This document shows positions 10,698 to 45,124 of a DNA stretch of 64,000 bases, one piece after another. This stretch comes from Commensalibacter nepenthis. GTDB lineage: Bacteria; Pseudomonadota; Alphaproteobacteria; Acetobacterales; Acetobacteraceae. The stretch lies in assembly GCF_029953305.1 (NCBI RefSeq), contig NZ_JASBAN010000001.1, positions 1,263,501 through 1,327,500 of the forward strand, given 5' to 3'. The position numbers were made by a program, and so were the translations under genes. The notes beneath the pieces were generated by a model. The model had not been told where the DNA came from. It was given only the letters and a program-made list of their open reading frames with translations, and did no database searches. How positions within the stretch are numbered: the stretch's first letter is position 1; every line of letters starts with the position of its first letter.

Positions 10698-11259
10698 AAA
10701 GGGGATCGATACAAGTATTAGAAAAACTATTGCAAGAGGTAGAGATTTGTCATTTTTGTGAAAGGTTACCCTTTGACCCTAAACCTATTTTACAAGTTGG
10801 TTCTTCCAAGGCGCGTTTGTTAATCACAGGTCAAGCCCCAGGAACGCTGGCGCATGAAACTAGAATAACCTTTAATAATTCTTCTGGAGATCGGTTGAGG
10901 GAGTGGTTACAAATTGATCGGGAAATATTTTACAATCCATCTTTGATTGCGATTGTTCCGATGGGGTTTTGTTACCTTGGAAAGTTAAAGCATGGCGGTG
11001 ATCTACCACCACGAAAAGAGTGTGCTCCTCGGTGGTGGAATAAGATATTGCAACAATTATCAGAATTACAAATGATGTTATTGGTCGGCTCGTATGCTCA
11101 AAATTATGTGTTAGGTAAAGGCAGGGTGACGAATCGTGTAAAAAATTATAAGGATTATTTACCTAATTTTTTCGTTTGCCTCATTCCTCGTGGCGGACTT
11201 TGGCTTGGAAAAAAAGAACCCATATTTTTGAAGATGAGATATTGAATGAGTTGAGGTAA
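10694..11259 (+). pseudogene. uracil-DNA glycosylase family gene, C-terminus frameshifted
   Basis: The N-terminal frame (TTG 10694 overlapping the cobB stop, SD AAAAGGAG) reads as a family 4/5-like uracil-DNA glycosylase: two Cys near 18-21, Gly-Gln-Ala-Pro-Gly (52-56) and Pro-Pro-Arg-Lys-Glu-Cys-Ala-Pro-Arg-Trp. In frame it ends at 11245 with an abnormal tail. The expected tail is spread over other frames: Leu-Pro-His at 11176-11184 (frame shifted), Lys-Lys-Asn-Pro-Tyr-Phe at about 11211-11228 (a third frame) and Glu-Asp-Glu-Ile-Leu-Asn-Glu-Leu-Arg-stop ending 11259. At least three small indels, several at homopolymers, remove the catalytic His motif. Either a dead gene or a cluster of sequencing errors; the unbroken 183-residue frame may still yield an inactive protein. 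Confidence 0.65.
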
Positions 11260-24814: not shown

Positions 24815-26101
24815 TTAAGTCATTTTGTAATCAACACCAGGTTGTTTTAATCGAATAAAATAAGTCAGGACAGCAGCAAAATAATATAAAAGTCCATAAA
24901 TAATAAAGACCCCATAATTCCCAAAACCAATAAAGTAAATAACAGATACTAAGGCATTCCCAAGGAATTGGCTCAGACCTCCCCCAAGGTTTTGAATAGA
25001 AACAGCAGCTCCTTTTCTTTCGGGGGCTAACATTGGAAAAATAGCCCCCATTGGAACAAAGGAGGTAATGGTTAATGCAAAAAAGAGCATTGCTGCGATA
25101 CTAGCGTAAACATTTCCTGGAAATAAGGTTGGAATATAATACAATAAGATGGTTGCTGTTCCACAACCAACAAATCCAACCCAGCGCATTTGTTTTAACC
25201 ACCCAATACGATCCCCAATAATACCCCACAAGACATTGGTAAACGGTTGAATTGGATAGATAAAAATACTGATTAACTGCCATTGATGTAAAGTAAACTG
25301 TCCACCATCATTAGCGGTCATAAAATTCGGTAAAACAACTGTTAGCACGCCAAAAAGAGAGAAATTACAAATTGCTCTGATAATCAGTGCAATGGCCAGA
25401 TCTCGGCTACGAAAAACAAGGGTTAAATCACTGCAAATTTCGCCTACTCTGGTGCCGAATGACACGTGTACTTTTTGCTCTTTTTCACTTTTCCTTTCGG
25501 CAGGCGTTTTTAAGAGAAATATTGTAATTGCGGCACCAGCAGTTGCCCAAATTAATGCTTGCCACAGGGTAAATTCTTCCCCCATTTTTTCGACAAAGAA
25601 ATAAGGAATGCAATAGCCGATAATACCATATCCAATGGTAAACATTGACCAAATCCAACCAACAGCAGAGGCGAGTTGATTATCTGGCGTTTCCTTGACT
25701 ACCCAATAAAAGAATCCATAAAAGAATAAAGGATAGGCAAATCCTCTTAATCCATAAAAAGCAAAAATTGCGTAATAATTATGTGGAACAATCCCAAATT
25801 GCATAAACGCAGCATGCAAAATAATCCACATGATGACACCAATAATCATAATTCTTTTGGCACCAAAGGTTTCAGCAAAAACCCCTGATAACCAACTGGA
25901 TATCGCAGCAGTCAATCCGTAAATGGAGAAAATTAAACTGCCTTTATCCTCGGCTATACCTAAATTATGATGAATATAATGAGCCAAAAAGCTCTGTTCA
26001 AAGCCATCACCAGCCATAAAAAGGGCAACAGCAATATATCCCCAAAAAAGGGAAACGGGCATGCCAATTACCATACGCGATTTTGCTTGGGAGTTACTCA
26101 T
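24815..26101 (-). CDS. MFS polyol permease, RbtT/DalT/CsbX-like
   Basis: 428 residues with 12 helices. The N-terminal Gly-Asp-Gly-Phe-Glu-Gln-Ser segment in TM1, Leu-Ser-Gly-Val-Phe-Ala-Glu-Thr-Phe-Gly-Ala-Lys-Arg between TM2 and TM3, and Gly-Ile-Ile-Gly-Asp-Arg-Ile-Gly-Trp in the middle match the ribitol/arabinitol permease branch of the MFS. A clear paralogue is encoded at 30022 in the rightward arm. It lies downstream of the xylitol-type dehydrogenase, separated from it by a strong terminator, so xylitol or another pentitol is the likely substrate (inferred from context). Confidence 0.82.
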   Translation of the reverse strand: MSNSQAKSRMVIGMPVSLFWGYIAVALFMAGDGFEQSFLAHYIHHNLGIAEDKGSLIFSIYGLTAAISSWLSGVFAETFGAKRIMIIGVIMWIILHAAFMQFGIVPHNYYAIFAFYGLRGFAYPLFFYGFFYWVVKETPDNQLASAVGWIWSMFTIGYGIIGYCIPYFFVEKMGEEFTLWQALIWATAGAAITIFLLKTPAERKSEKEQKVHVSFGTRVGEICSDLTLVFRSRDLAIALIIRAICNFSLFGVLTVVLPNFMTANDGGQFTLHQWQLISIFIYPIQPFTNVLWGIIGDRIGWLKQMRWVGFVGCGTATILLYYIPTLFPGNVYASIAAMLFFALTITSFVPMGAIFPMLAPERKGAAVSIQNLGGGLSQFLGNALVSVIYFIGFGNYGVFIIYGLLYYFAAVLTYFIRLKQPGVDYKMT

Positions 26102-26141
26102 TTGTCATATCCACAAAAAGAGAAATAATAATTAAGGGGAA

Positions 26142-26180
26142 AAAAGCCCGTCATAATCATCATTATTATGACGGGCTTTT
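26142..26180 (-). terminator. strong hairpin between dehydrogenase and permease
   Basis: A perfect 16-bp stem (26142-26157 with 26165-26180, 7-nt loop), GC-rich at its base and followed on the minus strand by T5-6. It ends the dehydrogenase transcript before the permease gene, or attenuates it. Confidence 0.85.
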
Positions 26181-26203
26181 AATAGTCAAAAAAGTAAAAT
26201 GAT

Positions 26204-27247
26204 TTATTCAACCAGTTGGATTTGTAGCTTTACATCATCAGGTTTTGCAGATGCTGCACGTTCAAATGCTTCAATTGCTTTTTCAAATGGATAAACGCCA
26301 GAAATCAACGGTTTTAAATTAACTTTTCCAGACGCAATTAAGCTAACGGCACGATCATATACATTTGCATAGCGGAAGACTGTTTCCATACGTAATTCTT
26401 TACTTTGTGCTGTAACCAAGTCAAATGGAACTTTGTCAACAGGCATTCCCACAAATACAATGGTTCCACCAGGTCTGACACAAGCAAGCAACGGATCGTA
26501 AGAAGAAGGATGTCCAGATGCTTCCAATGCTACATCGACGCCCCAATCTTTGCCACATTCAGCTTTAACCTTATCAACCAAGGATTCTTTGGTAATATTA
26601 ACAGGGATTAATCCTTCATATTGACCTGCGATTGCCAATTTTGGTGCCGCAACATCGGAAATAAAGACTTTACTTGCACCTGAAGCTAATGCAGCTAATG
26701 CGGTTAAAATACCAATAGGACCACATCCAGCAACTAAACAAACATCTCCTGGCTTGATTTGTGCTTTGACACAAGCATGTACGCCAGTTGCAAAAGGTTC
26801 GACAAAAGCACCTTCGGCAAATGAAACATTATCTGGTAATTTAAATGTATAAGCAGCAGGATGAACAACAGTTTCCGTTAAACATCCATGAATAGGAGGG
26901 GTCGCCCAGAAACGCACATCAGGATCAACATTATAAATTCCCAGTTGTGTTGCTTTGGAGTGTAGGTTTGGAATACCAGGTTCCATACAAACACGATCAC
27001 CAACTTTGAGATTGGTAACGTCTTTACCGACTTCGATCACTGTGCCAGAAGCTTCATGCCCAAGAACCATCGGTTCATTAACAACAAAAGGTCCAATTTT
27101 TCCATGTGTGTAATAATGGACGTCACTGCCACAGACACCAACATTATGGATTTTGATTTTGACATCGTTTGCCCCGACATGACTGGGTAAATCAATGTCA
27201 CGAATGCTCAGCTTACCTTTGCTTTCTAAAACAAGAGCTTTTGCCAT
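26204..27247 (-). CDS. xylitol dehydrogenase / D-xylulose reductase type MDR
   Basis: Zinc-dependent polyol dehydrogenase of 347 residues, very like the Morganella xylitol dehydrogenase as I recall it, including the shared stretches Gly-Ser-Asp-Val-His-Tyr-Tyr and Arg-Val-Cys-Met-Glu-Pro-Gly-Ile-Pro. Catalytic zinc ligands are Cys39, His64 and Glu65; the NAD motif is Gly-Cys-Gly-Pro-Ile-Gly near 172-177. The four structural-zinc cysteines are absent, as in other sorbitol/xylitol dehydrogenases. A strong SD AGGAGG precedes the ATG. Reaction: xylitol (or a related polyol) to D-xylulose with NAD+. Xylulokinase is not in the window. Confidence 0.85.
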
Positions 27248-27551: not shown

Positions 27552-27747
27552 TTTGCCTCCTATAAAATTATTAAAGGTCAAACCCTAATAAATGAACTAT
27601 GCTTTGTTATGTTACGTATTAAGTTATCTTTCTGAAAAACTTCAATATTTGTCTGATTTTATGATAGCATATTGAAAATTAAGAGCAATTTATTCTTTTA
27701 CATATTTTGGTCAAAATCATGTGATATCATTATTATGGGTTATAATA

Positions 27748-28080
27748 ATGAGTAATCAAGATGAAAATCTAGTCTGTTATAAAATACTTTCTGTTTAGAC
27801 TGTGCAAACGATTCCAGAGGGTTTTAAAAATCGTCACAATACTAAAATGGGAACATGGGCAAAATTGGTAATTTTATCTGGCTATTTAACGATGGAATTT
27901 ATGTCAGATGATGGAGAAACTACCGATCAAGTTGAATATTCGAAAGAGTAGCAAGCGCTCTTCATTAAACCGCAACATTATCATCAGATTGCGTCTTATA
28001 GTGAGGATATTCGTTGTCAACTTTCTTTCTATACCAAAGTGTCTGTCGTAAATGAAAAGCCATTCTTAAAAAATAGTTAA
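27748..28080 (+). pseudogene. DUF1971/TehB N-terminal-like gene with two amber stops
   Basis: ATG 27748 opens a 110-codon frame interrupted by TAG at 27796-27798 and TAG at 27949-27951, and closed by TAA at 28078-28080. Reading through gives a continuous cupin-like DUF1971 protein with Thr-Ile-Pro-Glu-Gly-Phe, Arg-His-Asn-Thr-Lys-Met-Gly-Thr-Trp, Gly-Tyr-Leu-Thr-Met-Glu-Phe and Lys-Pro-Gln-His-Tyr-His-Gln. Both stops sit where Gln fits well, so each looks like a CAG to TAG transition. It is recently decayed, or readable only with amber suppression. The family is linked with tellurite/TehB proteins. Confidence 0.8.
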
Positions 28081-28114: not shown

Positions 28115-28573
28115 TTAGGAAGAAATAGCTTTCTTTTCATAATAAGAAATACGTTCTACCTTAGGTGTTGAGCCACCACCAGAAAATTCAGAATCCAACC
28201 AGGCTTTAACAACGGTTTTTGCTAATTCTGGTCCAATAACTCTTTCACCCAAAGTGATGATTTGTGCATCGTTGCTTTTTCTGGCACGTTCAGCAGAAAA
28301 TGTATCATGACATTGCGCTGCACGAATTCCGGGGATTTTGTTGGCAGTAATTGCCATGCCAATGCCTGTTCCACAAACTAAGATTCCGCGTTCATGTTTT
28401 CCTTCTCTGATTGCTTGACCTACAGACCATGCAATATCAGGATAGAAATTGGATTCACGATTGGCATCTGTGCTGTAATCAACGACTTTGATGCCGATGG
28501 ATTCTAACCATTCCACAAGTGTATTTTTTAAATTAACCGCTGCATCGTCACAGCCAATAGCAATAGGTAACAT
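28115..28573 (-). CDS. RpiB/LacAB family sugar-phosphate isomerase (DerI-like candidate)
   Basis: 152 residues with the RpiB fold: Gly-Cys-Asp-Asp-Ala-Ala near 7-12 and the catalytic Cys67 in Cys-Gly-Thr-Gly-Ile-Gly-Met. rpiA is encoded at 55.5 kb, so this copy is not needed for ribose-5-phosphate isomerisation. Its position, divergent from an erythritol/L-threitol-type dehydrogenase and a DhaK-DhaL kinase, matches the tetritol pathways described in Mycobacterium smegmatis and Brucella, where RpiB homologues make D-erythrose 4-phosphate from erythrulose phosphate. That specific reaction is inference from context. An allose- or galactose-6-phosphate role is the alternative. Confidence 0.85.
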   Translation of the reverse strand: MLPIAIGCDDAAVNLKNTLVEWLESIGIKVVDYSTDANRESNFYPDIAWSVGQAIREGKHERGILVCGTGIGMAITANKIPGIRAAQCHDTFSAERARKSNDAQIITLGERVIGPELAKTVVKAWLDSEFSGGGSTPKVERISYYEKKAISS

Positions 28574-28841
28574 TACTTTTTCCTACGGTTTAAAGTTGTT
28601 GTTAATTAAAATTCTTAATTCGCTCTTAATAAATATCACGAAGAGTTCAATTATAACATATAAAAAATATATAATTTTTCACTATAATTGTTCTTGTAGA
28701 ACGAGAATTTTTCTTAATTTACCCTTGTTGTTCTAATAATCTTCAAAGTCAAATCACAAGTATTTTATTTGTATAAAAAACCAAATTGTTAAATGATGTC
28801 AGGCTAGAATTAAACCTATAAAATGTTCAAGAAAGAGTAAC

Positions 28842-29960
28842 ATGATGACAGAAGTTAAAACTGGCCCAGTTGCTAAATTAGATAATATTCCTAAAACGAT
28901 GCGTGCGATTGTTGCATACGCGCCTGGCGATTATCGTTTTGAGGAAGTGCCTGTTCCTGAAATTGGACCAAATGAAATTTTAGTCAAGGTCGAAGCATGC
29001 GGTATTTGTGCAGGAGATATTAAATCTTTTGAAGGCGCACCAAGTTTTTGGGGCGATGAAAAACAGCCTGCTTATATCAAAGCGCCAATGATTCCAGGTC
29101 ATGAATTTATTGGTCACGTTGTTGCTTATGGTGAAGGGATTAGCGATTTTAAATTAAATGATCGTATTACCTCTGAGCAAATTGTTCCTTGTTGGGATTG
29201 TCGCTTTTGTAATCGTGGTGAATATTGGATGTGTGAAAAGCACGATTTGTATGGTTTCCAAAAGAACGTCAATGGTGCAATGGCTGAATACATAAAACTT
29301 CCAAAAGAAGGGATCAATCACCATGTTCCTGATGATTTGCCAATGGAAAAAGCTGTATTGATCGAACCATACGCATGTTCAATGCATGCTGTGCAACGTG
29401 CAAGCGTTAAATTGGGCGATGTTGTTGTGCTTTCTGGTGCAGGTACGCTTGGTTTAGGGATGATTGGCGCAATTAAAAAATCTGGTCCAGACAAATTGGT
29501 TGTTCTTGATTTAAACGAAGATCGCCTTGCTATGGCTAAAAAATTTGGTGCGGATATTGTGATGAACCCAGCTAAGGAAGATGTGGTTCAAAAAATCAAA
29601 GATATGACCGAAGGCTATGGTTGCGATATTTATATTGAAGCAACAGGTGCTGGTAAATCTGTTGAACAAGGATTGGCGATGATCCGTAAATTGGGTCGTT
29701 TTGTTGAATTTTCAGTGTTCAAAGACCCTGTGGCTGTAGATTGGAGCATCATTAGTGATCGTAAAGAGTTGGATGTATTGGGATCTCATTTAGGTCCATA
29801 TTGTTATCCAATGACGATTAAAGGGATCCAAAATGGAGATTTCCCAACAGAAGGCGTTGTAACACACGTGTTTGCATTAGAGGACTATCAAGAAGCCTTT
29901 GGGTTAATGAAAAAAGGTGTTGGTTCTTTGAAAATTGTTTTGGATCCAAATAGAAAATAA
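28842..29960 (+). CDS. erythritol/L-threitol dehydrogenase-like (EltD-like) zinc MDR
   Basis: 372 residues. Catalytic zinc ligands are probably Cys53 or Cys56, His87 and Glu88; the structural zinc cysteines are Cys117, 120, 123 and 131. The stretches Ser-Glu-Gln-Ile-Val-Pro-Cys-Trp, His-Asp-Leu-Tyr-Gly-Phe and Val-Asp-Trp-Ser-Ile-Ile-Ser-Asp with Leu-Gly-Pro-Tyr-Cys recall the M. smegmatis erythritol/L-threitol dehydrogenase EltD closely (from memory, no search run). It would oxidise a tetritol to erythrulose with NAD+. Two ATGs are adjacent (28842, 28845), preceded by AAAGAG. A strong hairpin separates it from the permease gene downstream. Confidence 0.8.
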   Translation: MMTEVKTGPVAKLDNIPKTMRAIVAYAPGDYRFEEVPVPEIGPNEILVKVEACGICAGDIKSFEGAPSFWGDEKQPAYIKAPMIPGHEFIGHVVAYGEGISDFKLNDRITSEQIVPCWDCRFCNRGEYWMCEKHDLYGFQKNVNGAMAEYIKLPKEGINHHVPDDLPMEKAVLIEPYACSMHAVQRASVKLGDVVVLSGAGTLGLGMIGAIKKSGPDKLVVLDLNEDRLAMAKKFGADIVMNPAKEDVVQKIKDMTEGYGCDIYIEATGAGKSVEQGLAMIRKLGRFVEFSVFKDPVAVDWSIISDRKELDVLGSHLGPYCYPMTIKGIQNGDFPTEGVVTHVFALEDYQEAFGLMKKGVGSLKIVLDPNRK

Positions 29961-29977
29961 CTATTTTGGCCGATACA

Positions 29978-30006
29978 AAGCCTAGCGGATGGCTAGGCTT
30001 TTGTTT
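29978..30006 (+). terminator. hairpin between the EltD-like gene and its permease gene
   Basis: A perfect 9-bp stem (29978-29986 with 29992-30000, 5-nt loop) with 3' TTTGTTT. It lies 18 bp after the dehydrogenase stop and just before the permease ribosome site, so read-through is needed for cotranscription. Confidence 0.8.
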
Positions 30007-30021
30007 ATAAGGGAAGAGTGT

Positions 30022-31296
30022 ATGGGCAATATAATAAATAAAATCTTTGTTTCACCAAAATTGATGCTGGGTTATTTTGGGGTGATGATTTTTATGGCTG
30101 GTGAAGGTTTAGAACTTAACTGGTTACCTGACTATTTACAGCATAATGGTATGACTGAGGCTCAAACGGGTCTGATTTACACAATCTATGGACTGATGGT
30201 TGCCATTTCATCATGGTTTTCTGGCGTTTTGGCAGAAATCTTTGGTGTCAGACGCGTTATGTTCATAGGACTGGTTTTATTTTATATTGGTTCATTCTTC
30301 TTTCTGACCTTTGGTATCCCTACAAATAGTTTATATTGGATAATTCCGACTTATGCTGTTCGCGGGTTGGCTTATCCATTATTTGCTTATGGATTTTTGG
30401 TGTGGGTTGCTTATGAAGCCCCCGCAGAACGTTTAGGCTCAGCAGTTGGAATTTTTTGGTTTATGTATTCTGGCGGTGTTGCGGTAATTGGTACTAAATA
30501 TTCCGATATTATGTTGAATTATTTTCACATGCAGCATTTGCATCTATTATGGACTGCATTAATTTTCGTCACATTGGGTGCGATTATTGCTTTGGCTCTA
30601 AGTGGCGGTGATTCTTCTGGCAATAATAATCGAAAATCAGAAAAAGCATCTTTTTCTTATTTACTTAATGGATTAACAATTTTAGCCAAGAAACCAAAAG
30701 TTGCAATGGGCGGTATTGTTCGTATAATTAATACCAGTGCTGCTTATGGTTTTCCTGTATTTATTCCAGCACTTTTAATTGCTGAAAGTTATGACAAAGC
30801 TGTTTGGTTGTCTGTTGTTTTCTGGTTATGGATGACCAATGTTGTCTTTAATTTGTTGTGGGGTATTATCGCAGACAGATTGGGTTGGCGTAATGTTGTG
30901 ATGTGGTTTGGTTGTGTTGGCTGTGCGATTACAACATTCTTATTCTATTATGCGATAACATCACATGCATCAGTTTTAACAATTACAATTATTGCCAGTG
31001 TTTATGGTTGTTTTCTTGCTGCGTTTGTTCCGTTATCTGCAATTATGCCAATGTTGGCTCCAAATGACAAAGGTGCAGCGATGTCTATCCTTAATTTTGG
31101 CGCAGGGATGAGTTATTTCTTTGGATATTTTATTGTAACCTTGTTTATTTCTTCTATTGGCAGTGGTGGCGTGATTTATATCTATACAGCATTATATGTG
31201 GTCGCTGCTGTATTAATGATTTTTGTAAATGTGAAACAGCCTTCTGGAGATAGTGTTGAGCATGAGTTAAGCGTTGCAGTTAAAGAAGCTTTGTAA
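30022..31296 (+). CDS. MFS polyol permease, second RbtT-like paralogue
   Basis: 424 residues from ATG 30022, which has SD AAGGGAAGAG. The open frame begins 33 nt earlier inside the terminator, an unlikely start. Twelve helices; shares with the permease at 24.8-26.1 kb the TM1 Ala-Gly-Glu-Gly-Leu-Glu, the Ile-Tyr-Gly-Leu-x-x-Ala-Ile-Ser-Ser-Trp segment and Gly-Ile-Ile-Ala-Asp-Arg-Leu-Gly-Trp. By position it should import the tetritol or tetrulose substrate of this arm. An SDR gene follows after 33 bp. Confidence 0.82.
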   Translation: MGNIINKIFVSPKLMLGYFGVMIFMAGEGLELNWLPDYLQHNGMTEAQTGLIYTIYGLMVAISSWFSGVLAEIFGVRRVMFIGLVLFYIGSFFFLTFGIPTNSLYWIIPTYAVRGLAYPLFAYGFLVWVAYEAPAERLGSAVGIFWFMYSGGVAVIGTKYSDIMLNYFHMQHLHLLWTALIFVTLGAIIALALSGGDSSGNNNRKSEKASFSYLLNGLTILAKKPKVAMGGIVRIINTSAAYGFPVFIPALLIAESYDKAVWLSVVFWLWMTNVVFNLLWGIIADRLGWRNVVMWFGCVGCAITTFLFYYAITSHASVLTITIIASVYGCFLAAFVPLSAIMPMLAPNDKGAAMSILNFGAGMSYFFGYFIVTLFISSIGSGGVIYIYTALYVVAAVLMIFVNVKQPSGDSVEHELSVAVKEAL

Positions 31297-31329
31297 ATTG
31301 TTAATAATTTGATCGTAAGGGATAAAATA

Positions 31330-32085
31330 ATGTCTCAAAAAGAAATGTTTGATTTATCTGGTAAAGTTGCCGTTATTACGGGTGGTGGTGCAGGTATTGG
31401 CAATGAAATTGCCAAGGCATATTTGGAAAAAAATGTCAAAGTTGCATTACTAGATCGTGCAGAAAATATTGCAGAAATCGCCAAAGAATTAAGTGCAGAC
31501 AATGTGATTGGATTACAACTTGATGTAACTAAAAAAGATCAAATTGATCAAACAATCAAAAGAGTCGTCGATCATTATGGTCGTATTGATATTTTGGTGA
31601 ATTGCGCTGGCGTCGCAATATTAGATGCGGCTGAAGATGTCAGTGAAGAAGGTTGGGATGCAACGATTGCAATTAATTTAAAAGGTACATTTTTTGTTTC
31701 CCAAGCTGTCGGTAAGGTGATGTTGAAACAAAAACAAGGTTCAATTATCAATTTTGCGTCTCAAGCAGGCGTTGTTGCCCTTCCAAACCACCTGTCCTAT
31801 TGTGCCAGCAAAGCTGGGGTTATTGGGTTAACCAAAGTATTGGCTTTGGAATGGGGGCCTTCTAATATTAATGTGAATTCGATTTCTCCGACTGTTGTAT
31901 TAACGGCAATGGGTAAAACCGTATGGGCTGGTGCTGTGGGTGATGAATTTAAAGCAAAAATTCCATCACGCCGCTTTGCCGAACCTGAACAAATTGCTGC
32001 TGCTGCTGTTTATTTAGCAAGTAGTGAAGCATCCATTATTAATGGTGCAAATTTAGTTATTGATGGTGGTTTTACAATTCAGTAA
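31330..32085 (+). CDS. SDR polyol dehydrogenase (threitol dehydrogenase candidate)
   Basis: 251 residues from ATG 31330 (SD AAGGGAT); the frame opens at 31309 without a ribosome site. Classical SDR: Thr-Gly-Gly-Gly-Ala-Gly-Ile-Gly near 17-24, Asn-Cys-Ala-Gly-Val near 91-95, the Ser of the catalytic triad, then Tyr-Cys-Ala-Ser-Lys near 157-161. Sugar-alcohol or 3-oxoacyl type by sequence. Its place between a polyol permease and dhaK suggests that it oxidises a second stereoisomer, as the SDR DthD (D-threitol dehydrogenase) does in M. smegmatis; this is inferred. Confidence 0.82.
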   Translation: MSQKEMFDLSGKVAVITGGGAGIGNEIAKAYLEKNVKVALLDRAENIAEIAKELSADNVIGLQLDVTKKDQIDQTIKRVVDHYGRIDILVNCAGVAILDAAEDVSEEGWDATIAINLKGTFFVSQAVGKVMLKQKQGSIINFASQAGVVALPNHLSYCASKAGVIGLTKVLALEWGPSNINVNSISPTVVLTAMGKTVWAGAVGDEFKAKIPSRRFAEPEQIAAAAVYLASSEASIINGANLVIDGGFTIQ

Positions 32086-32123
32086 GATAATCACATATTT
32101 GTTAATCAAGCCAAAGTGAATGA

Positions 32124-33131
32124 ATGATGAAATTAAACAGAATTATTAATGATCCTAATCTTGTTGTTGAAGATGCAATTGAAGGATATGTAGCAGCTCA
32201 TCCAGAGCTTTTTGCAAAAACAGATCATGAGAGAGTATTGAAATATCCATCTATCCCACAACAAGGAAAAGTTGGGATTGTTACAGGTGGTGGTTCTGGT
32301 CATGAGCCTGCGTTCTTGGGCTATGTTGGTAAAAACATGGTTGATGCTGTGGCTATTGGAGAGATTTTTTCTTCACCAACCGCAGGTGCTTTTCTTGATG
32401 CGATGAAAGCTGCTGACGGTGGGGCAGGTGTTGCTTGTCTTTATGGAAATTATGCTGGCGACAATATGAATGTCAAAATGGCGGTTAAAAAAGCGGCTGC
32501 TGCGGGTATTACTGTAAAAACAGTGGTTGCTAATGATGATGTTGCTTCTGCACCGATTGATGAAAAAGAAAAACGTCGTGGTGTTGCTGGTGAAATCCTG
32601 ATGTGGAAAGTGGGCGGTGCAGCTGCAGCGGCTGGCTATGATCTGGATGGTGTTATTGCTGTTGCTCAAAAAGCTATTGATAATTGTCGTTCTATTGGCG
32701 TTGGTCTAAGTTCTTGTATTATTCCAGCTGTGGGTCATCCTAATTTCAATATTGATAATGGGATGATGGAAGTTGGTATCGGTCATCATGGTGAGCCTGG
32801 TATCAATGTTGTTCCTTTACAACCTGCCAAAGAAATGGCAGAAACCATGTTGGAACCTATTTTAAAAGAAGGACTTTTTGAATCTGGTTCTGAAGTTGTT
32901 GTTTTAGTTTCTGGTTTGGGTGCAACCCCTACGATGGAGCTTTATATTTATTATGCAGAAGTCGATCGCATTTTAAAAGAAAAAGGCGTTAAGGTTCATC
33001 GTAGCTACGTGGGTAACTATTTTACCTCTCTTGAAATGATGGGTGTTACTCTTTCTATGATGAAATTAGATGACGAGTTGAAAAAACTTGTTGATGCTCC
33101 CGTTCATTCTCTTGGTATGGTTCAAGGTTAA
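32124..33131 (+). CDS. dihydroxyacetone kinase DhaK-like subunit (ketose kinase)
   Basis: 335 residues, the complete K domain that covalently binds the ketose through a His: Gly-Ile-Gly-His-His-Gly-Glu-Pro-Gly places it at His222. The substrate-site motif Gly-Gly-Gly-Ser-Gly-His-Glu-Pro-Ala lies at 55-63. dhaL follows after 4 nt. DHA and erythrulose are both known substrates in the family. The neighbours here (EltD-like, SDR, RpiB-like) favour erythrulose, giving erythrulose phosphate; DHA or glycerol use is the alternative. Two adjacent ATGs mark the start. Confidence 0.88.
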   Translation: MMKLNRIINDPNLVVEDAIEGYVAAHPELFAKTDHERVLKYPSIPQQGKVGIVTGGGSGHEPAFLGYVGKNMVDAVAIGEIFSSPTAGAFLDAMKAADGGAGVACLYGNYAGDNMNVKMAVKKAAAAGITVKTVVANDDVASAPIDEKEKRRGVAGEILMWKVGGAAAAAGYDLDGVIAVAQKAIDNCRSIGVGLSSCIIPAVGHPNFNIDNGMMEVGIGHHGEPGINVVPLQPAKEMAETMLEPILKEGLFESGSEVVVLVSGLGATPTMELYIYYAEVDRILKEKGVKVHRSYVGNYFTSLEMMGVTLSMMKLDDELKKLVDAPVHSLGMVQG

Positions 33132-33135
33132 TAAA

Positions 33136-33780
33136 ATGTCTGAAGTTATTGTTATTAAAAATGGTGTTGATATCGTTGATGATTTAATCAATGTAATCGT
33201 TAGCAATCGGGACTACTTAAGTGAAATCGATGGTGCTATTGGGGACGGAGATCACGGTATTAATATGGCCAAAGGGTTTAATATTTGTAAAACCCGCATT
33301 GATGGTAAACAATTAACCCTATCTGAGGCTTTGGCTGAACTTAGTGATTCTTTAATGGAAGGCATTGGTGGTTCTATGGGACCATTATATGGTTGCATTT
33401 TCACAGGTTGGTCAGACAGCGTTCAAGGTAAAACAGAGCTGACCAAAGAAGATGTGCAAGCCATGTTGGCAAATGGGATGAGCGAACTGCAAGATATTAG
33501 CCCGGCTCAAAAAGGTGACAAATGTTTGGTAGATACTTTATTTCCAGCCGTTGAAAGTTTTGCACAAGCTGTTAAAGAAGAGAAAACTTTTAAAGAAGCA
33601 TTAAATATTATGAAAGATGCTGCTGCAAAAGGGCGAGATTCGACCAAAGATTTAGTGGCTAAAATTGGTCGTGCAAGCCGCCTTGGCGAACGTTCAAAAG
33701 GTGTGTTAGATGCTGGTGCGACTTCTTGTTGTTTATTGGTAACTCAATTAGCAGATAGCCTTGAGGCAAAAATGAATTAA
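33136..33780 (+). CDS. dihydroxyacetone kinase DhaL-like subunit
   Basis: 214 residues from ATG 33136; the frame opens at 33088 inside dhaK. The nucleotide/Mg site Asp32-x4-Asp37-x-Asp39 is seen in Ile-Asp-Gly-Ala-Ile-Gly-Asp-Gly-Asp-His-Gly, and the phosphate loop Gly-Gly-Ser-Met-Gly-Pro-Leu-Tyr-Gly near 77-85 is kept. In PTS-type DHA kinases DhaL holds ADP that is rephosphorylated by DhaM; in single-chain kinases it uses ATP. No dhaM or other PTS gene is nearby, so exchangeable ATP is the likelier donor. A strong terminator follows. Confidence 0.88.
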   Translation: MSEVIVIKNGVDIVDDLINVIVSNRDYLSEIDGAIGDGDHGINMAKGFNICKTRIDGKQLTLSEALAELSDSLMEGIGGSMGPLYGCIFTGWSDSVQGKTELTKEDVQAMLANGMSELQDISPAQKGDKCLVDTLFPAVESFAQAVKEEKTFKEALNIMKDAAAKGRDSTKDLVAKIGRASRLGERSKGVLDAGATSCCLLVTQLADSLEAKMN

Positions 33781-33806: not shown

Positions 33807-33843
33807 AAAACCGTGCTTTTGCCAAAAAAGCACGGTTTTTTGT
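33807..33843 (+). terminator. terminator of the tetritol operon
   Basis: A perfect 14-bp stem (33807-33820 with 33826-33839, 5-nt loop) and a T6 tract, 26 bp after the dhaL stop. Confidence 0.9.
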
Positions 33844-34158: not shown

Positions 34159-35712
34159 CTAGAAGTTGACTGTTGATCTTAATCCAAAAACAGCCTCATT
34201 TTGTATGCGTTTATGATAGCCCTCTTCTAAATTTAATCCTCCACCAGGATTGAATATATATTGGAAATCGGGTTTTATTTCCCACCAAGGCGTTGCTTGG
34301 ATTTGCCATGCTAATTCTATGTGATGTTCTGTTTTTCTGGTGCGCCATGAGGGGTCATTGTTAAAGTAACGATAATCACGATCATATTGTCTGGCTCTAT
34401 CTCCAAAACTACCAAATCCCCACGCAAACCCAAGAGAGTCGTCCTCTCTATTAAAAATACCTTTATAAACAATACCTGCATCACCCCCTAGATTAACGGG
34501 ACTGCGATCGCCTGGTGATGTTTGGATGCGACCAAAGAGACCGACGGAATGGGTTTTATCTTTGTTACGCCAAATCATTTGATCGATAATGCCATATACA
34601 GACCAATTATGTCGGTGTTTCCACATGGTTTGGTCGTTATTAGGATCGGCAAGTGGTAGTCTTTGTGCATTATATCGTTGATCGGGAAAACCTGCACTGT
34701 CAAAATAAGCACCGATTCTGTATGTGCCTGGATAGCCAGTAGATACTGTTTTATCTTTTGCATCATCAGGGGCAGGGTTTAAATGATATTGTAATTCATT
34801 GATAATGAATACGCCTGTGTTAAAATTAAAATGTGTTCCAGAAAGGTGTGCTGCTTGTGGATCGCAAGTAAAGGCACCTGATGGGTTACAAAAAGGAACA
34901 TCGTTAGGATTATCATTGGTGACTGCAAATAAATTGGTCCAATTAGCATTGGGTTGAAATGCGAATCGAATGCCAGGGGCAGCCAAAGGATAGTCAACAC
35001 CACCACTATAGGTATCAACAGAGCTGACCATTGACCAACCAAAAGAAGAGTTGATAAACATGGTTGCGTAATCACTAATATTAAATTCTTGGTCTAAACT
35101 TAATTTACCAATACGTACTGTAAATTTATCATCCCAAAATCCTTGTTGGTACCACAGCTCCCATAATCTTGTGGAACGATCGGCTTCAATACCACTGATA
35201 TTATTTAAGTCGCTTAGATTTTCACCTGTAAATTGGCGACCTCTAATTTGTAAAGCACTGATATTAAATACCCCATGTTTTATTCCTAGAACTTTTTCAG
35301 GATCCCAGTTTAAGGTAAGCGTGGTCATCCCTTCATAGGCGGCGCCTTGTTTCGTCCCACCATATGGATTTCCCCAAACTTCGTTAATATCAACAGCGGT
35401 GAACGTGATTCCATATTGTGCCAACCAAGGGCGAACGCCCCACATATCTTTTAACAACATATCCTGATCTTCTGGATGTTGCCCTGTATTTTGATCTAGA
35501 ACTTTTGCGGGAGGCGGTGTTTTCTTTGTAGGGTTAGCACTGCTATTATTTGTTGAGGGTGATGCGTCTTGGCTAATAATAGCAGAAGAGCGGGCTGCAT
35601 GGGCGTGATTTGTGTAAATAATTAAGGATAGAGGCACATAAACAGAAATGGAAGTTAGTTTTTTTCTATAGTATGAGGGGATATGTGCAAGATATTTCAA
35701 GAGTTTTTTCAT
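34159..35712 (-). CDS. OprB-type carbohydrate porin
   Basis: 517 residues from ATG 35712 (GAGAT about 10 nt upstream; the frame begins 15 nt earlier). Long signal peptide to about residue 40 (Asn-His-Ala-His-Ala), a Ser/Pro/Thr-rich linker, then an OprB beta-barrel starting with Trp-Gly-Val-Arg-Pro-Trp-Leu-Ala-Gln-Tyr-Gly-Ile and ending in the Phe-terminated strand Ser-Thr-Val-Asn-Phe typical of outer-membrane barrels. OprB porins admit glucose and other sugars or polyols. A Fur-like site lies about 30 bp upstream, suggesting iron control, odd for a sugar porin but shared with the divergent iron operon. Confidence 0.88.
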   Translation of the reverse strand: MKKLLKYLAHIPSYYRKKLTSISVYVPLSLIIYTNHAHAARSSAIISQDASPSTNNSSANPTKKTPPPAKVLDQNTGQHPEDQDMLLKDMWGVRPWLAQYGITFTAVDINEVWGNPYGGTKQGAAYEGMTTLTLNWDPEKVLGIKHGVFNISALQIRGRQFTGENLSDLNNISGIEADRSTRLWELWYQQGFWDDKFTVRIGKLSLDQEFNISDYATMFINSSFGWSMVSSVDTYSGGVDYPLAAPGIRFAFQPNANWTNLFAVTNDNPNDVPFCNPSGAFTCDPQAAHLSGTHFNFNTGVFIINELQYHLNPAPDDAKDKTVSTGYPGTYRIGAYFDSAGFPDQRYNAQRLPLADPNNDQTMWKHRHNWSVYGIIDQMIWRNKDKTHSVGLFGRIQTSPGDRSPVNLGGDAGIVYKGIFNREDDSLGFAWGFGSFGDRARQYDRDYRYFNNDPSWRTRKTEHHIELAWQIQATPWWEIKPDFQYIFNPGGGLNLEEGYHKRIQNEAVFGLRSTVNF

Positions 35713-35740
35713 TGTCTGATATCTCATATAAAAATGAAAT

Positions 35741-35979: not shown

Positions 35980-36516
35980 ATGTGTATTAAAAAAACCCTT
36001 TTAGCAACAGGCTGTGCATTGCTTTTTTCAAGTCCTGCTTTTGCGGTTGAATATCCGATTGGTAAACCCCAAACATGCGGAGGGATGGAGATCGCTGCGG
36101 TCTATTTGCAACCGATTGAAATGGATCCCGAAGGGGTTATGCTGCCAGCATCTAAATCTGATATCCATCTTGAAACAGATATTCATGCAACCGCAGACAA
36201 CAAAAATGGTTTCCCAGAAGGCAGCTGGATGCCATATCTGCAAGTTGCTTATGAGCTGAATAAAGTGAATGATACAAAAATTACCAAAGGAATTTTGCAT
36301 CCAATGGTTGCAAATGATGGTCCACATTATGGTGAAAATATCAAAATGATGGGACCTGGAAAATATCATTTAAAAGTAACCATTTTACCCCCTTCTCGTG
36401 AATCAATGTTCGGCAGACATGTTGATAAAGAAACAGGGGTTGCACCATGGTTTAAACAATGTGTAACGGAATTTGATTTTACCTATGCTGGCACAGGTAA
36501 AAAAGGCGGATATTAA
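35980..36516 (+). CDS. ftrA: periplasmic P19/Tpd-type iron-binding protein (FtrA)
   Basis: 178 residues with a signal peptide (about 1-22, Ala-Phe-Ala cleavage) and the P19/Tpd immunoglobulin-like domain. Metal-ligand candidates Met and His are in Gly-Gly-Met-Glu-Ile near 35, Thr-Asp-Ile-His-Ala near 69 and Gly-Pro-His-Tyr-Gly near 113. P19-type proteins bind copper and iron and deliver or oxidise Fe(II) for the FTR1 permease. Excellent SD AAGGAGAT. First gene of ftrABCD as described in Bordetella and Brucella. Confidence 0.9.
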   Translation: MCIKKTLLATGCALLFSSPAFAVEYPIGKPQTCGGMEIAAVYLQPIEMDPEGVMLPASKSDIHLETDIHATADNKNGFPEGSWMPYLQVAYELNKVNDTKITKGILHPMVANDGPHYGENIKMMGPGKYHLKVTILPPSRESMFGRHVDKETGVAPWFKQCVTEFDFTYAGTGKKGGY

Positions 36517-36702
36517 TTAGTTGTTATTTTGTGTTTAAAAAAAGTTGTTAGGATATTGGAAAGATGAAAAGTTACTTCAAATATCCTGATAATTTTTGTG
36601 TAAGTTAACTCATTTAAAATCGTAATTTTACAGAGTTATTTTTATTGTTTTTAAATAAGTATTTTTATTGAGTGTTTGCATGTAAGCCTAAGAGGTTTTG
36701 AT

Positions 36703-37032
36703 ATGAGAAAATTGCGGACTATTTTGTTTTTGTTTTTGTTTATACCAATACCAGTATTTGCGACACCGCTTGCAAATTATGATATTACAATTAAAGATGG
36801 TGTTTTTTCCCCACAATCTATCGAGGTTCCATCCGATCAACGGTTTAAAATTACGATTAAAAATATTGGTCAAGGTCCAGCGGAATTTGAAAATTTATCA
36901 TTAAGAGTTGAAAAAGTTTTGGCTGCAGGGGTTACGTCATTTGTTGTAATTCATCCATTGAAACCTAATACTTATCATTTTATTGATGAATTTCATATGG
37001 ATATGCAAGGGTTTAATATCATTTCCAAATAG
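36703..37032 (+). CDS. ftrB: periplasmic cupredoxin-like protein FtrB
   Basis: 109 residues from ATG 36703 (AAGAGG upstream; the frame opens 27 nt earlier). Signal peptide at 1-20 (Val-Phe-Ala), then a small cupredoxin fold with Asp-Gly-Val-Phe-Ser-Pro and Pro-Ala-Glu-Phe-Glu-Asn, the motif of EfeO/FtrB domains. A classical blue-copper Cys ligand is not seen, so redox activity would depend on other ligands. Second gene of the iron uptake operon; ftrC follows after 11 nt. Confidence 0.86.
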   Translation: MRKLRTILFLFLFIPIPVFATPLANYDITIKDGVFSPQSIEVPSDQRFKITIKNIGQGPAEFENLSLRVEKVLAAGVTSFVVIHPLKPNTYHFIDEFHMDMQGFNIISK

Positions 37033-37043
37033 GAGTTTTCACT

Positions 37044-37883
37044 ATGGGTGCGCCCTTATTTATCGTATGGCGTGAAAGCGTAGAAGCATTACTGGTTATT
37101 GGTATTCTATATGCGTGGTTACGAAGAGAAAATTTATTATTATTAACTAAACAGCTTTGGATTGGCACGGCTCTGGGCTTATTGCTTGCAGGATTATTGG
37201 CGGTTGCCTTTTGGGTGGCAGGTAGTTGGTTTGCAGGATCGGGTGGGGAATGGTTTTTTACCATCATGATGTTTGTTGCATCATTGTTAATTTTACAAAT
37301 GGTGATTTGGATGCATCGTCATGGCAGTGGTATGAAAAAACACCTTGAACAAGAAGCTGCGGAAAGTTTGCACAAATCAGGTGGAGGCTTTGGAATTCTG
37401 ATTCTAGCCATGTTGGCTGTTGCAAGAGAAGGATCGGAAACGGTTGTTTTCCTTGCTGGCATTGGTGCTCAACAAAAAGGAACGTCGATTGGTTTATTTA
37501 TACTTGGGGGTGTGGTTGGTTTATTACTTGCGCTGTTGACATTCTGGCTTTTACAAAAATGCTCTAAGATCATTGCATGGAAATGGTTCTTCTTGATTAG
37601 TGAGTTTTTATTACTTCTGATCGGAGGAGGATTAATGATTAGTGCTTTTGATAAAGCAGCAGCACAAATTTCAGATTATGATTTGCCAGAATGGCTTTTT
37701 AATTTTATGGATAATGCGTTATGGAGTACATCTTGGCTGGTTCCAGATAATAGTACATTAACAGGATTAACAGGGTATCATGCTGAGCCTTCTTTGATGC
37801 AAGTATCTGTAATATTACTTTATTGGTTATGTGCGATCTTGTTGTGCAATATATCGTTCACGAAGAATCCAAGCACAAAATAA
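37044..37883 (+). CDS. ftrC: FTR1 family high-affinity iron permease FtrC
   Basis: 279 residues with seven helices. The two FTR1 iron-exchange motifs Arg-Glu-x-x-Glu are intact: Arg10-Glu-Ser-Val-Glu14 in helix 1 and Arg128-Glu-Gly-Ser-Glu132 in helix 4. SD AGGAG lies 8 nt before ATG. It moves ferric iron across the inner membrane after oxidation of ferrous iron by FtrA/FtrB. Confidence 0.94.
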   Translation: MGAPLFIVWRESVEALLVIGILYAWLRRENLLLLTKQLWIGTALGLLLAGLLAVAFWVAGSWFAGSGGEWFFTIMMFVASLLILQMVIWMHRHGSGMKKHLEQEAAESLHKSGGGFGILILAMLAVAREGSETVVFLAGIGAQQKGTSIGLFILGGVVGLLLALLTFWLLQKCSKIIAWKWFFLISEFLLLLIGGGLMISAFDKAAAQISDYDLPEWLFNFMDNALWSTSWLVPDNSTLTGLTGYHAEPSLMQVSVILLYWLCAILLCNISFTKNPSTK

Positions 37884-37902
37884 TAGGTTTAAGTTACATT
37901 AT

Positions 37903-39279
37903 ATGATCAGTTCTTTATTTAAAATAACGACATATCGACTGGGTGCTGCGATGCAGCGTCATAAGGGGATTATACAAACCATTCAATGGATCATTGTTGG
38001 TTTTTATGTTGTATTGCTGGTGATCCCCGCTTTTATGGATTTACCTCCAAGACAAGCACATATACTTAATAATCTTGTTTTATTTGCTCAATTTGTTTTT
38101 TGGGGCATTTGGTGGCCATTTGTTATTTTATCGATGTTGGTTATAGGGCGTGTATGGTGTGGTGTCTTCTGCCCAGAGGGTGCTATTAGTGAATGGACTT
38201 CTAAAAAATTTGGTAAAAATAAAAAGATACCGCGTTGGATTAAATGGAAGGCGTGGCCCGCGATTGCTTTCATTTTAACGACATTATATGGGCAGTTGAT
38301 TAGCGTGTATGATTATGCAGATTCTGCATTATTAATTCTTGGTGGATCAACGGTGGCTGCTATTCTTATTGGTTATTTATACGGCAGAGAAAATCGCGTA
38401 TGGTGTCGGTATTTATGTCCAGTGAATGGTGTATTTAATCTGCTTTCACGGCTTTCACCGTTTTCGTTTAAAAGTGATGCCAAAAAATGGTCTGAATATC
38501 ACGGGAATTCTGTAAGTAATCCTCATTGCCCACCAATGATTAATATCCGACAACTTCACGGTGTTTCTGGGTGTCATATGTGTGGACGTTGTGCTGGTTT
38601 AAGGGATGCAGTCAGCTTACAGCCAAGGTCTGTTAATGAAGAAATTATTACTTATGGCAATGAAAAAGATAATTTGTGGGAAACGCGCCTTTTATTGTTT
38701 GGAATGATTGGTGTTGCCATTGGGGCATTTACATGGACTGTTTCCCCTTGGTTTGTAACAGCGAAACAGTTTTTGGCGAATTGGTTAATTAATCATGACA
38801 TATTATGGCCAATGAATGCTACGGCACCTTGGTGGATATTAACCAATCATCCTGAGAATAATGATAGTTTTAATTGGCTTGATGGGTTTTGCGTTACGTT
38901 CTATATTCTTGGTTCGGGGCTTTTATATGGGTTCGGACTAACAGGTGTTTATAAGTCATTGGCTAAGTTTTTATACAGACCTAATCTTTATTCCTATATC
39001 GCACAAGCATTAATACCCATAGCAGCGGCTGGTCTGTTTTTAGGTCTGACTGCTACGAGTGTTAAATTGTTACAATATGATGGGATCGTTTTCTGGTGGT
39101 TAAAGGATGCCCGTGTAACCATACTAGCGTTTTTCAGTCTGTGGAGCTTATATTTAGGGTATAATATCCTCAGAAAATCTACAGATATTTTTTATAAATT
39201 CATAATCTCATTTGGTTTGTTCGCTTTGTCTTTGGTGCCGATTGTTGGGGCATGGTGGTTAATGTTTATGGGGTGGTGA
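37903..39279 (+). CDS. ftrD: membrane ferredoxin FtrD (NapH/CcoG-like)
   Basis: 458 residues from ATG 37903; the frame opens in the ftrC end. Several membrane helices flank the cysteine clusters Trp-Cys-Gly-Val-Phe-Cys-Pro-Glu-Gly (about 85-93), Trp-Cys-Arg-Tyr-Leu-Cys-Pro (about 167-173) and Cys-His-Met-Cys-Gly-Arg-Cys (about 224-230), giving polyferredoxin-type Fe-S sites. It is thought to pass electrons between FtrB and the membrane. Last gene of ftrABCD; it converges with hisC about 50 bp away with no clear terminator. Confidence 0.88.
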   Translation: MISSLFKITTYRLGAAMQRHKGIIQTIQWIIVGFYVVLLVIPAFMDLPPRQAHILNNLVLFAQFVFWGIWWPFVILSMLVIGRVWCGVFCPEGAISEWTSKKFGKNKKIPRWIKWKAWPAIAFILTTLYGQLISVYDYADSALLILGGSTVAAILIGYLYGRENRVWCRYLCPVNGVFNLLSRLSPFSFKSDAKKWSEYHGNSVSNPHCPPMINIRQLHGVSGCHMCGRCAGLRDAVSLQPRSVNEEIITYGNEKDNLWETRLLLFGMIGVAIGAFTWTVSPWFVTAKQFLANWLINHDILWPMNATAPWWILTNHPENNDSFNWLDGFCVTFYILGSGLLYGFGLTGVYKSLAKFLYRPNLYSYIAQALIPIAAAGLFLGLTATSVKLLQYDGIVFWWLKDARVTILAFFSLWSLYLGYNILRKSTDIFYKFIISFGLFALSLVPIVGAWWLMFMGW

Positions 39280-43987: not shown

Positions 43988-45124
43988 ATGGCTGAGAATC
44001 CTCTTGTTCAACTTGAAAAATATGGACAATCTCCTTGGTTGGATTTTATCCAACGTTCTTTTACAGCGAATGGCAGTCTTAAAAAGCTGGTTGATGAAGA
44101 TAACCTTAAAGGGGTGACTTCTAATCCTGCAATTTTTGAAAAAGCCATGGGTCATGGAACTGAATATGATCCTCAATTCAAAGAATTGATTGCATCAGGG
44201 GTAACGGATGTTTCAACATTATATGAAACCGCAGCGATTGAAGATATCCGTAATACATGTAAGGTGATGTTTCCTGTATGGGAAAAAACCAAAGGCGTGG
44301 ATGGATATGTAAGTCTTGAAGTTTCCCCTTATATTGCGATGGATGGTCAAAAAACCATTGAGGAAGCACGCCGTTTATGGAAACAAGTTGCAGAAAAAAA
44401 TCTGATGATTAAGATTCCAGCAACAGCCCCATGTATTCCTGCGATTGAAACTGCTATTTCTGAAGGGATTAATGTGAATGTAACGCTATTATTCTCTTTG
44501 GAAGCATATAAAAATGTTTTGGAAGCCTATATTTCTGGTTTGGAAAAACATTTAGCCAAAGGACATCATATTGGTCATATTGCCAGTGTTGCTTCTTTCT
44601 TTGTAAGCCGTATTGATACAGCGATTGATAAAGAAATTGATACGCGTGTTGCAGCGGGTGATAAAGAAAGTGCAGCATTAAAAGCTGTTCGTGGTAAGGT
44701 TGCGCTTGCAAATGCAAAAATGGCATATCAATATTATCTTGAAGTGATGAAAAGCGATCGTTGGAAAAAGCTGGCTGCTGCTGGTGCGCATCCTCAACGT
44801 TTGTTATGGGCAAGCACAGGGTGTAAAGATAAATCTTTCCCTGATACGATTTATGTTGACGGGTTGATTGGTCAAGATACAGTGAATACAATTCCTCCTG
44901 CAACAATGGACGCTTTTCGCGATCATGGAACCGCTTCTCAGACCTTAGATAAAGATATTGAAGGTGCTAAGAAAATATTATCAGAAGCTCAACGATTGAA
45001 TTTAGATCTAGCAGGCGTTACAGATAAATTATTAGCCGATGGTGTTGCTCAATTTGCCACTGCGTTTGACCAATTATTAGGTTCTGTTAAAGAAAAATTA
45101 GAAACTTTAAAAAGTGGGAAATAA
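43988..45124 (+). CDS. tal: transaldolase
   Basis: Moves a dihydroxyacetone unit from sedoheptulose 7-phosphate to glyceraldehyde 3-phosphate. 378 residues, the long bacterial subclass: Gly-Val-Thr-Ser-Asn-Pro-Ala-Ile-Phe-Glu-Lys at 42-52 and the Schiff-base Lys142 in Met-Ile-Lys-Ile-Pro-Ala-Thr. In many acetic acid bacteria this sequence is the N-terminal half of a roughly 950-residue transaldolase/phosphoglucose isomerase fusion. Here it stops (TAA 45122-45124) and the isomerase part lies 4 nt on in another frame. Confidence 0.94.
   Translation: MAENPLVQLEKYGQSPWLDFIQRSFTANGSLKKLVDEDNLKGVTSNPAIFEKAMGHGTEYDPQFKELIASGVTDVSTLYETAAIEDIRNTCKVMFPVWEKTKGVDGYVSLEVSPYIAMDGQKTIEEARRLWKQVAEKNLMIKIPATAPCIPAIETAISEGINVNVTLLFSLEAYKNVLEAYISGLEKHLAKGHHIGHIASVASFFVSRIDTAIDKEIDTRVAAGDKESAALKAVRGKVALANAKMAYQYYLEVMKSDRWKKLAAAGAHPQRLLWASTGCKDKSFPDTIYVDGLIGQDTVNTIPPATMDAFRDHGTASQTLDKDIEGAKKILSEAQRLNLDLAGVTDKLLADGVAQFATAFDQLLGSVKEKLETLKSGK

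Follow-up and report, generated by a model that had tools for sequence, protein, structure and literature searches.

Gene content of the cluster

The window analyzed here is a 64,000-nt stretch of the Commensalibacter nepenthis genome (Acetobacteraceae; contig NZ_JASBAN010000001.1, positions 1,263,501 to 1,327,500), within which a preliminary description had marked six genes, at window positions 28115 to 33780, as a candidate module for the utilization of the tetritols erythritol and threitol. Open reading frame inspection and profile searches confirmed the positions and families given there: all six frames are intact and have clear family matches, with one gene divergent from five on the plus strand. 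The minus-strand gene (28115-28573) encodes an isomerase of the RpiB/LacAB family (PF02502, 176.8 bits). A 268-base intergenic region (28574-28841), presumed to control both transcripts, separates it from the gene for a zinc-dependent medium-chain dehydrogenase/reductase (28842-29960; PF08240 and PF00107), the proposed erythritol (tetritol) dehydrogenase, which falls into group 1 of the EltD-like proteins as defined below. The four plus-strand genes that follow encode a polyol permease of the major facilitator superfamily (MFS) and the RbtT/DalT/CsbX family (30022-31296; longest frame from 29989), a short-chain dehydrogenase/reductase (SDR) of the GolD/DthD family, proposed as a D-threitol dehydrogenase (31330-32085; longest frame from 31309), DhaK, the ketose-binding subunit of a proposed D-erythrulose kinase (32124-33131; PF02733, 386.4 bits), and DhaL, the nucleotide-binding kinase subunit (33136-33780; longest frame from 33088; PF02734, 172.2 bits).

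The permease scores 465.6 bits against TIGR00897 (cut-off 375) and the SDR 370.5 bits against the GolD/DthD model NF005309 (cut-off 286), the nearest solved chain of the latter protein being 4npc, a 'Sorbitol dehydrogenase'. DhaL exceeds the cut-off of TIGR02365 (168.7 vs 138.3 bits). The best NCBIfam match of DhaK is the fused PRK14479 family, for which it stays below the cut-off (430.2 vs 492), as a single domain might, and its GHEP, NYAGD and HGEPG stretches align to solved DhaK chains. Family matches in two separate frames bear out the split kinase of the preliminary description. The split is no peculiarity of this cluster: in most related loci, too, the two subunits are matched by distinct stretches, and they are separate annotated genes in all three plasmid loci of this kind examined. 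In the zinc dehydrogenase, residues C56, H87, E88, E175, C117, C120, C123 and C131, the presumed zinc ligands, are invariant among 17 aligned sequences.

Translation probably starts at 30022 for the permease (MGNIINKIF), 31330 for the SDR and 33136 for DhaL. With these revised starts the plus-strand intergenic gaps measure 4 to 61 bases, the dhaL ATG lying 4 bases past the dhaK stop. Downstream of dhaL, an intrinsic-terminator-like hairpin (33807-33839, plus strand) combines a 14-pair stem with a T-rich tail; terminator-like sites as a class do not exceed chance expectation (6 vs a mean of 5.0 in shuffled sequences). A ten-pair stem-loop at 29977-30001 (plus strand), between the dehydrogenase and permease genes, might tune operon expression. 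As for the divergent intergenic region, promoter-like matches in 28574-28841 were not above chance, and no conserved operator was evident, with little common to all 7 aligned intergenic regions.

Association of the dehydrogenase with DhaK and DhaL

To place the cluster among its relatives, we searched 299 Acetobacteraceae genomes with the zinc dehydrogenase and obtained matches at 1e-40 in 50. These comprise group 1 (about 64-100% identity; 29 genomes, one match being partial), group 2 (47-52%; 9 matches) and remote relatives at 29-34%. Gene neighborhoods were inspected for 23 group-1 loci, from 23 of the 28 further genomes (G206, G085, G228, G259 and G108 lie outside this set), for 6 of the 9 group-2 matches, and for 80 named loci (from Bacilli, Gammaproteobacteria, Clostridia and others), which are the best 80 of at least 579 relatives and several of which are cut by contig ends. 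Here, 'near' means within 7 kb, and an identity floor of 40% was applied to the SDR. All these loci were gathered through the zinc dehydrogenase and therefore form a biased sample, and the 23- and 80-locus counts overlap, with at least L123, L127 and L129 sharing their dehydrogenase with L045, L048 and L049.

Both DhaK and DhaL are encoded near the group-1 dehydrogenase in 20 of the 23 Acetobacteraceae loci and 69 of the 80 named loci, while neither was found near any of the six group-2 dehydrogenases. Two of the group-2 loci were scanned with Pfam; both contain an ABC transporter, and one of them also an FGGY kinase. An RpiB-family gene accompanies the group-1 dehydrogenase less constantly (8/23 Acetobacteraceae and 56/80 named loci), and a transketolase gene lies within 7 kb in 23 of the 80; in several enterobacterial relatives, tkt or tal adjoins the isomerase gene. 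On a Salmonella plasmid (L147), tal-rpiB is divergent from eltD-MFS-SDR-dhaK-dhaL-regulator, and an E. coli plasmid (L146) carries tkt-tal-rpiB together with eltD-MFS-dhaK-dhaL-regulator, without the SDR gene. EryH-like triosephosphate isomerase (TIM) genes were found in just 3 of 113 related loci with two EryH queries.

Two plasmid loci deserve mention in their own right. In L146 (E. coli plasmid NZ_CP063469.1, IncHI1B), an IS1 and an IS3 transposase gene flank the module together with tkt and tal, and the end of a predicted tet(A) is about 5 kb away from tkt. In L151 (a Rhizobium phaseoli plasmid), genes for a DerI-type isomerase and a TIM adjoin oiaX, encoding 3-oxo-isoapionate-4-phosphate decarboxylase, a layout that suggests a link between apionate breakdown and erythrulose-phosphate steps.

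The isomerase lacks the RpiB histidines

Alignments revealed that the window isomerase has CDDAA in place of the CDH of RpiB and SAERARKSNDAQ in place of the HND stretch. Two histidine columns of RpiB are thereby occupied by Asp and Ser (relative to chain 3he8 and E. coli RpiB); these are presumably the catalytic/phosphate-binding His10 and His99 of the E. coli numbering. The HN of RpiB is replaced by SN in 73 of the 74 RpiB-family proteins from eltD loci, the window included, and in both rhizobial proteins (one from an ery-type locus of R. leguminosarum, the other from the oiaX locus of R. phaseoli), vs none of 33 other PF02502 proteins. This last set (30 top-scoring loci, with 205 of 299 genomes matched, plus 3 plasmid proteins) favors canonical RpiB by the way it was chosen. 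The sole exception among the 74 is a second copy in Dysgonomonas (L132), where RpiB-family genes at 10936 and 15674, one SN-type and one His-type, make a natural pair for the signature. In many proteins of Bacilli the first histidine is retained (SDHN), with SN at the second place.

In a tree, the 73 eltD-locus and the two ery/oia isomerases form one group separate from RpiB (SH-aLRT 92, not starred; long branches flagged). The two rhizobial isomerases, to which the window protein is 49% and 44% identical, exceed the cut-off of 240 for NF051858, the model of rhizobial D-erythrulose-4-phosphate isomerase DerI, with 255.7 and 257.1 bits. The window isomerase fits a wide DerI/EryI-like class, defined in this analysis by SN[ND]A for HND and absence of the CDH histidine. 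Across the 299 genomes, listed NF051858 scores fall into about 229-252, 143-184 and <124 bits, and we scored as DerI-like any protein reaching at least 140 bits, a line set after seeing the gap. With this setting, a DerI-like isomerase occurs in 28 of the 29 genomes with a group-1 dehydrogenase vs 28 of the 270 without it (Fisher p 1e-22, a value that ignores kinship and so overstates the independence of related genomes). Fifteen genomes with the dehydrogenase, 14 of them without an isomerase match in the group-1 locus, were also considered, and 14 of the 15 have an SN-type isomerase somewhere in the genome.

The window gene at 28115-28573 is the only PF02502 gene of the C. nepenthis genome, which also encodes RpiA (C1:1319155, inside the window at about 55655). 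A plain housekeeping RpiB was judged unlikely, given this RpiA and the missing RpiB histidines. Such isomerases are named ribose-5-phosphate isomerase B in Salmonella and Pseudalkalibacillus records, and the choice between HND and SN[ND]A offers a cheap sequence test for sorting 'RpiB' annotations into likely ribose-phosphate and likely erythrulose-phosphate isomerases.

Complementary functions in the genome

A second, fused DhaK-DhaL kinase is encoded elsewhere in the genome, closest to an ATP-type glycerone kinase model whose cut-off it narrowly misses (561.6 vs 574.95). With this enzyme and RpiA present, the cluster kinase is probably not needed for dihydroxyacetone, nor the cluster isomerase for ribose 5-phosphate. 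A phosphotransferase-dependent kinase of the DhaKLM type appears unlikely, because the DhaM partner (TIGR02364) had no match in the genome, the E. coli control being matched. One TIM-family gene exists (C1:204081, about 1.09 Mb from the cluster), and beyond it the genome holds no dedicated TIM-family L-erythrulose-1-phosphate isomerase (LerI-type). Lacking a TIM of the LerI/EryH type, the cell should be able to use D-erythrulose only, in agreement with erythritol and D-threitol as substrates. With regard to a periplasmic PQQ-dependent route, TIGR03074 had no genome match, a model that may not cover SldAB. A linked regulator was also sought; the only match in the genome to the Salmonella plasmid regulator is 28% identical and about 1.03 Mb away.

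Proposed pathway and alternative readings

The association with DhaK and DhaL and the isomerase signature support the preliminary proposal of a C4-polyol module ending at D-erythrose 4-phosphate, and we put the probability that the cluster serves tetritol catabolism inside the cell at about three in four. Substrates, the pairing of dehydrogenases with stereoisomers, cofactors and direction are inferred as follows. The permease would import a C4 polyol; the zinc dehydrogenase would oxidize erythritol, and the SDR D-threitol, to D-erythrulose with NAD; DhaK and DhaL would phosphorylate D-erythrulose to D-erythrulose 4-phosphate at the expense of ATP; and the RpiB-fold isomerase would convert this product into D-erythrose 4-phosphate, which transketolase and transaldolase would pass into central metabolism. 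The earlier statement that every step is present appears to hold for the D-erythrulose branch (erythritol and D-threitol) only, given the single TIM of the genome.

Several observations weigh against this assignment. The DhaK-DhaL pair went undetected near the dehydrogenase in 11 of the 80 named and 3 of the 23 Acetobacteraceae loci, some of them cut by contig ends. The isomerase scores above the cut-off of the rpiB model TIGR01120 (147.9 vs 138.65 bits) and of a second RpiB model, PRK05571, and it falls below the cut-off of 240 for DerI (174.1 bits; 173.4 in a wider scan); moreover, its 41% identity to E. coli RpiB is little under its identity to the rhizobial pair. Genome G132 has the dehydrogenase and no isomerase match. 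In 28 Acetobacteraceae genomes a DerI-like isomerase occurs without a group-1 dehydrogenase, so this enzyme also acts in other pathways, and further routes through erythrulose phosphate may be widespread in the family. The permease family carries pentitol-transporter names. The zinc dehydrogenase stays below every NCBIfam cut-off, its top models being threonine dehydrogenases (224 vs 458). Finally, a Sphingomonas protein annotated as EltD (SpRDH) is a ribitol/xylitol dehydrogenase with 2% activity on erythritol, according to the part of PMC7343156 consulted.

The EltD label itself deserves caution. The EltD motifs on which the preliminary description had based its EltD-like call are present in the window dehydrogenase and common to groups 1 and 2, and a protein labeled 'erythritol/L-threitol dehydrogenase' on a Providencia plasmid, 53.7% identical to that of the window, groups with group 2 (SH-aLRT 86, not starred). 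EltD identity was therefore not established by shared motifs, and we discarded these as proof. Because group 2 shares them and the label has once covered a ribitol dehydrogenase, the name carries little weight, and the accompanying kinase genes are more informative. For annotation the warning is that at least one database protein called EltD is a pentitol dehydrogenase. Being outside the clade with the 'EltD' label, the group-1 dehydrogenases may, on phylogenetic grounds, constitute a separate family of D-erythrulose-forming tetritol dehydrogenases.

Among the alternatives, a C3 module survives best, although we consider it unlikely. The SDR would then be a GolD-type glycerol dehydrogenase, DhaK and DhaL a dihydroxyacetone kinase and the isomerase an RpiB feeding only the pentose phosphate pathway, in line with the GolD/DthD name of the SDR family, the annotation of the kinase families for dihydroxyacetone and the TIGR01120 score. 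The Listeria gol operon combines GolD with DhaKLM; literature searches returned no report on it among the matches listed. This alternative is countered by the separate fused DhaK-DhaL kinase, by the presence of RpiA and by the lack of RpiB histidines in an isomerase that a C3 route does not need and that nonetheless tracks the dehydrogenase.

Slightly less probable still is a C5 module, in which ribitol, xylitol or arabitol would be the dehydrogenase substrates and a pentulose phosphate that of the RpiB-like enzyme. SpRDH gives precedent for such substrates, both permeases at the locus belong to the RbtT/DalT/CsbX family and a second dehydrogenase and permease pair adjoins the cluster (24815-27247). 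On the other hand, the ketoses known as substrates of DhaK-type kinases have three or four carbons, and no FGGY pentulokinase is among the families of the cluster, to which the search for FGGY kinases was confined; one was found in a group-2 dehydrogenase locus. Least probable is a reading in which the zinc dehydrogenase works reductively or on another polyol, the main substrate being either a free tetrose or tetrulose or, via the SDR, D-threitol. In some relatives the zinc dehydrogenase and DhaKL are not accompanied by an adjoining SDR of the kind encoded here, so the two dehydrogenases may serve different inputs of one kinase. Against this reading stand the recurrence of the zinc dehydrogenase with DhaKL (in a sample gathered through it) and the combination of a permease with two dehydrogenases, which points to polyol uptake.

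Origin of the module

In the dehydrogenase tree, the sequences of the source genus and of G013, from a further genus, fall together with those of Serratia, Erwinia, Edwardsiella, Providencia and the two enteric plasmids (SH-aLRT 91, not starred). This grouping is nested in a starred clade of Bacilli and Gammaproteobacteria and lies apart from the 17 other Acetobacteraceae loci and from the named rows of Asaia and Swaminathania. Approximately unbiased (AU) tests on 75 of the 122 rows rejected a topology holding all 24 Acetobacteraceae rows together (p-AU 9.9e-48) and did not reject one joining the source genus (with G013) to Enterobacterales (p 0.745). Identities run the same way for the whole cluster. 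For the dehydrogenase they amount to 75.2% with 7 Enterobacterales vs 65.0% with 17 other Acetobacteraceae, for the isomerase to 66.1% vs 52.8% (3 other Acetobacteraceae), for DhaK to 75.8% vs 63.5% (16), for DhaL to 62.3% vs 47.9% (14) and for the SDR to 55.0% vs 35.0% (4), with 7 Enterobacterales behind the first value in each case. The permease is 54.0% identical to those of the Enterobacterales and has no tblastn match in the 17 other Acetobacteraceae group-1 loci.

Of the 7 source-genus genomes in the set, one, G173, has neither the dehydrogenase nor the isomerase. Base composition gave no hint of transfer, with module genes at 0.37-0.41 GC, the window at 0.379 and flanking genes alike. 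Rejection of a grouping with other Acetobacteraceae suggests, as far as trees and identities can tell, that the module was acquired laterally; retention of an old paralogue may be an alternative. The route in the source genus appears not to be common by descent to the rest of the Acetobacteraceae. A more far-reaching reading, to which we give even odds, is that enterobacteria, in part on plasmids, and one acetic acid bacterial genus share a mobile tetritol island whose RpiB-fold isomerase represents an additional, as yet uncurated class of D-erythrulose-4-phosphate isomerases.

Neighboring genes

The transketolase (41802-43865) and transaldolase (43988-45124) block that had been noted about 8 kb downstream consists of real genes. 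Their membership in the operon was ruled out by unrelated genes between dhaL and the block, namely those for an OprB porin, an iron-transport block, a class I/II aminotransferase and an ankyrin-repeat protein. The OprB-type carbohydrate-selective porin gene (34159-35727, minus strand; PF04966, 302.4 bits) converges on dhaL and is placed alike in all five genus-mate loci; its product might serve polyol entry through the outer membrane. The iron-uptake block (35980-39279, plus strand) encodes a Fe2+ transport protein (PF10634), a cupredoxin-like protein, an FTR1 permease and a 4Fe-4S membrane protein.

On the other side, the minus strand encodes a dehydrogenase (26204-27247) whose best NCBIfam match, below cut-off, is L-idonate 5-dehydrogenase, and a second RbtT/DalT/CsbX permease (24815-26101). 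This pair, perhaps a C5 or C6 polyol locus, is kept in four of five genus-mate loci (L036, L037, L039 and L040; not L038) and was not seen in the G013 locus (L041). Between it and the isomerase gene, a small gene remnant with in-frame stops (about 27740-28080, plus strand; readable stretch TIPEGFKNRHNTKMGTWAKLVILSGYLTMEF) is probably a pseudogene, possibly cupin-like as judged by eye.

Comparison with known systems

Acetic acid bacteria are known for polyol oxidation outside the cytoplasm, and a cytoplasmic C4-polyol route to erythrose 4-phosphate, if true, would represent a different strategy among them. The cluster is unreported for acetic acid bacteria or Enterobacterales among the literature matches listed, judged by titles and abstract beginnings, and the main text of PMC10149009 mentions neither polyol, dihydroxyacetone, arabitol nor PQQ.

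Its closest counterparts are in Enterobacterales. Clusters of Serratia (L069 and L071), Erwinia (L112), Edwardsiella (L079) and the Salmonella plasmid (L147) have the same six genes in the same order with a divergent isomerase gene, and are 75-78% (dehydrogenase), 68-78% (DhaK), 67-73% (isomerase) and 51-59% (SDR) identical to the proteins encoded in the window. Beyond the isomerase gene, transketolase is encoded in L069, L071 and L112 and transaldolase in L147, with neither detected in L079. The two enteric plasmids have a 'sugar-binding transcriptional regulator' gene 3' of dhaL, unlike the window cluster.

The tetritol pathway of Mycobacterium smegmatis uses an ABC transporter where the window cluster has an MFS permease. 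Otherwise the proposed route resembles it, as it would also run from tetritol through erythrulose and erythrulose phosphate to D-erythrose 4-phosphate by dehydrogenase, kinase and isomerase in this order; a LerI-type TIM is absent from the window cluster. The D-threitol, L-threitol and erythritol pathways of M. smegmatis are described in the parts of PMC10733421 and PMC12780249 consulted, the former reporting that EltD, LerK, LerI and DerI allow an E. coli tktAB mutant to grow on erythritol and L-threitol. According to the consulted part of PMC5992420, the Brucella/rhizobial ery pathway likewise ends with an RpiB-fold enzyme, EryI, giving D-erythrose 4-phosphate, and differs in starting with the kinase EryA and in needing EryB, EryC and EryH. 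Neither the EryA (FGGY) nor the EryH (TIM) family is among those of the window cluster, the search for FGGY kinases being confined to it. The same source describes a Yarrowia cluster with an erythritol dehydrogenase, a DHA-kinase-like erythrulose kinase and an RpiB-like isomerase, which is fungal and, unlike the window cluster, has a TIM-like isomerase. With this yeast erythritol cluster on record, the general scheme is already known. The pathway is of an ordinary kind, with chemistry known elsewhere, and its variant details are the split kinase with an MFS permease, the D-branch only, an uncurated isomerase class and the enterobacterial grouping.

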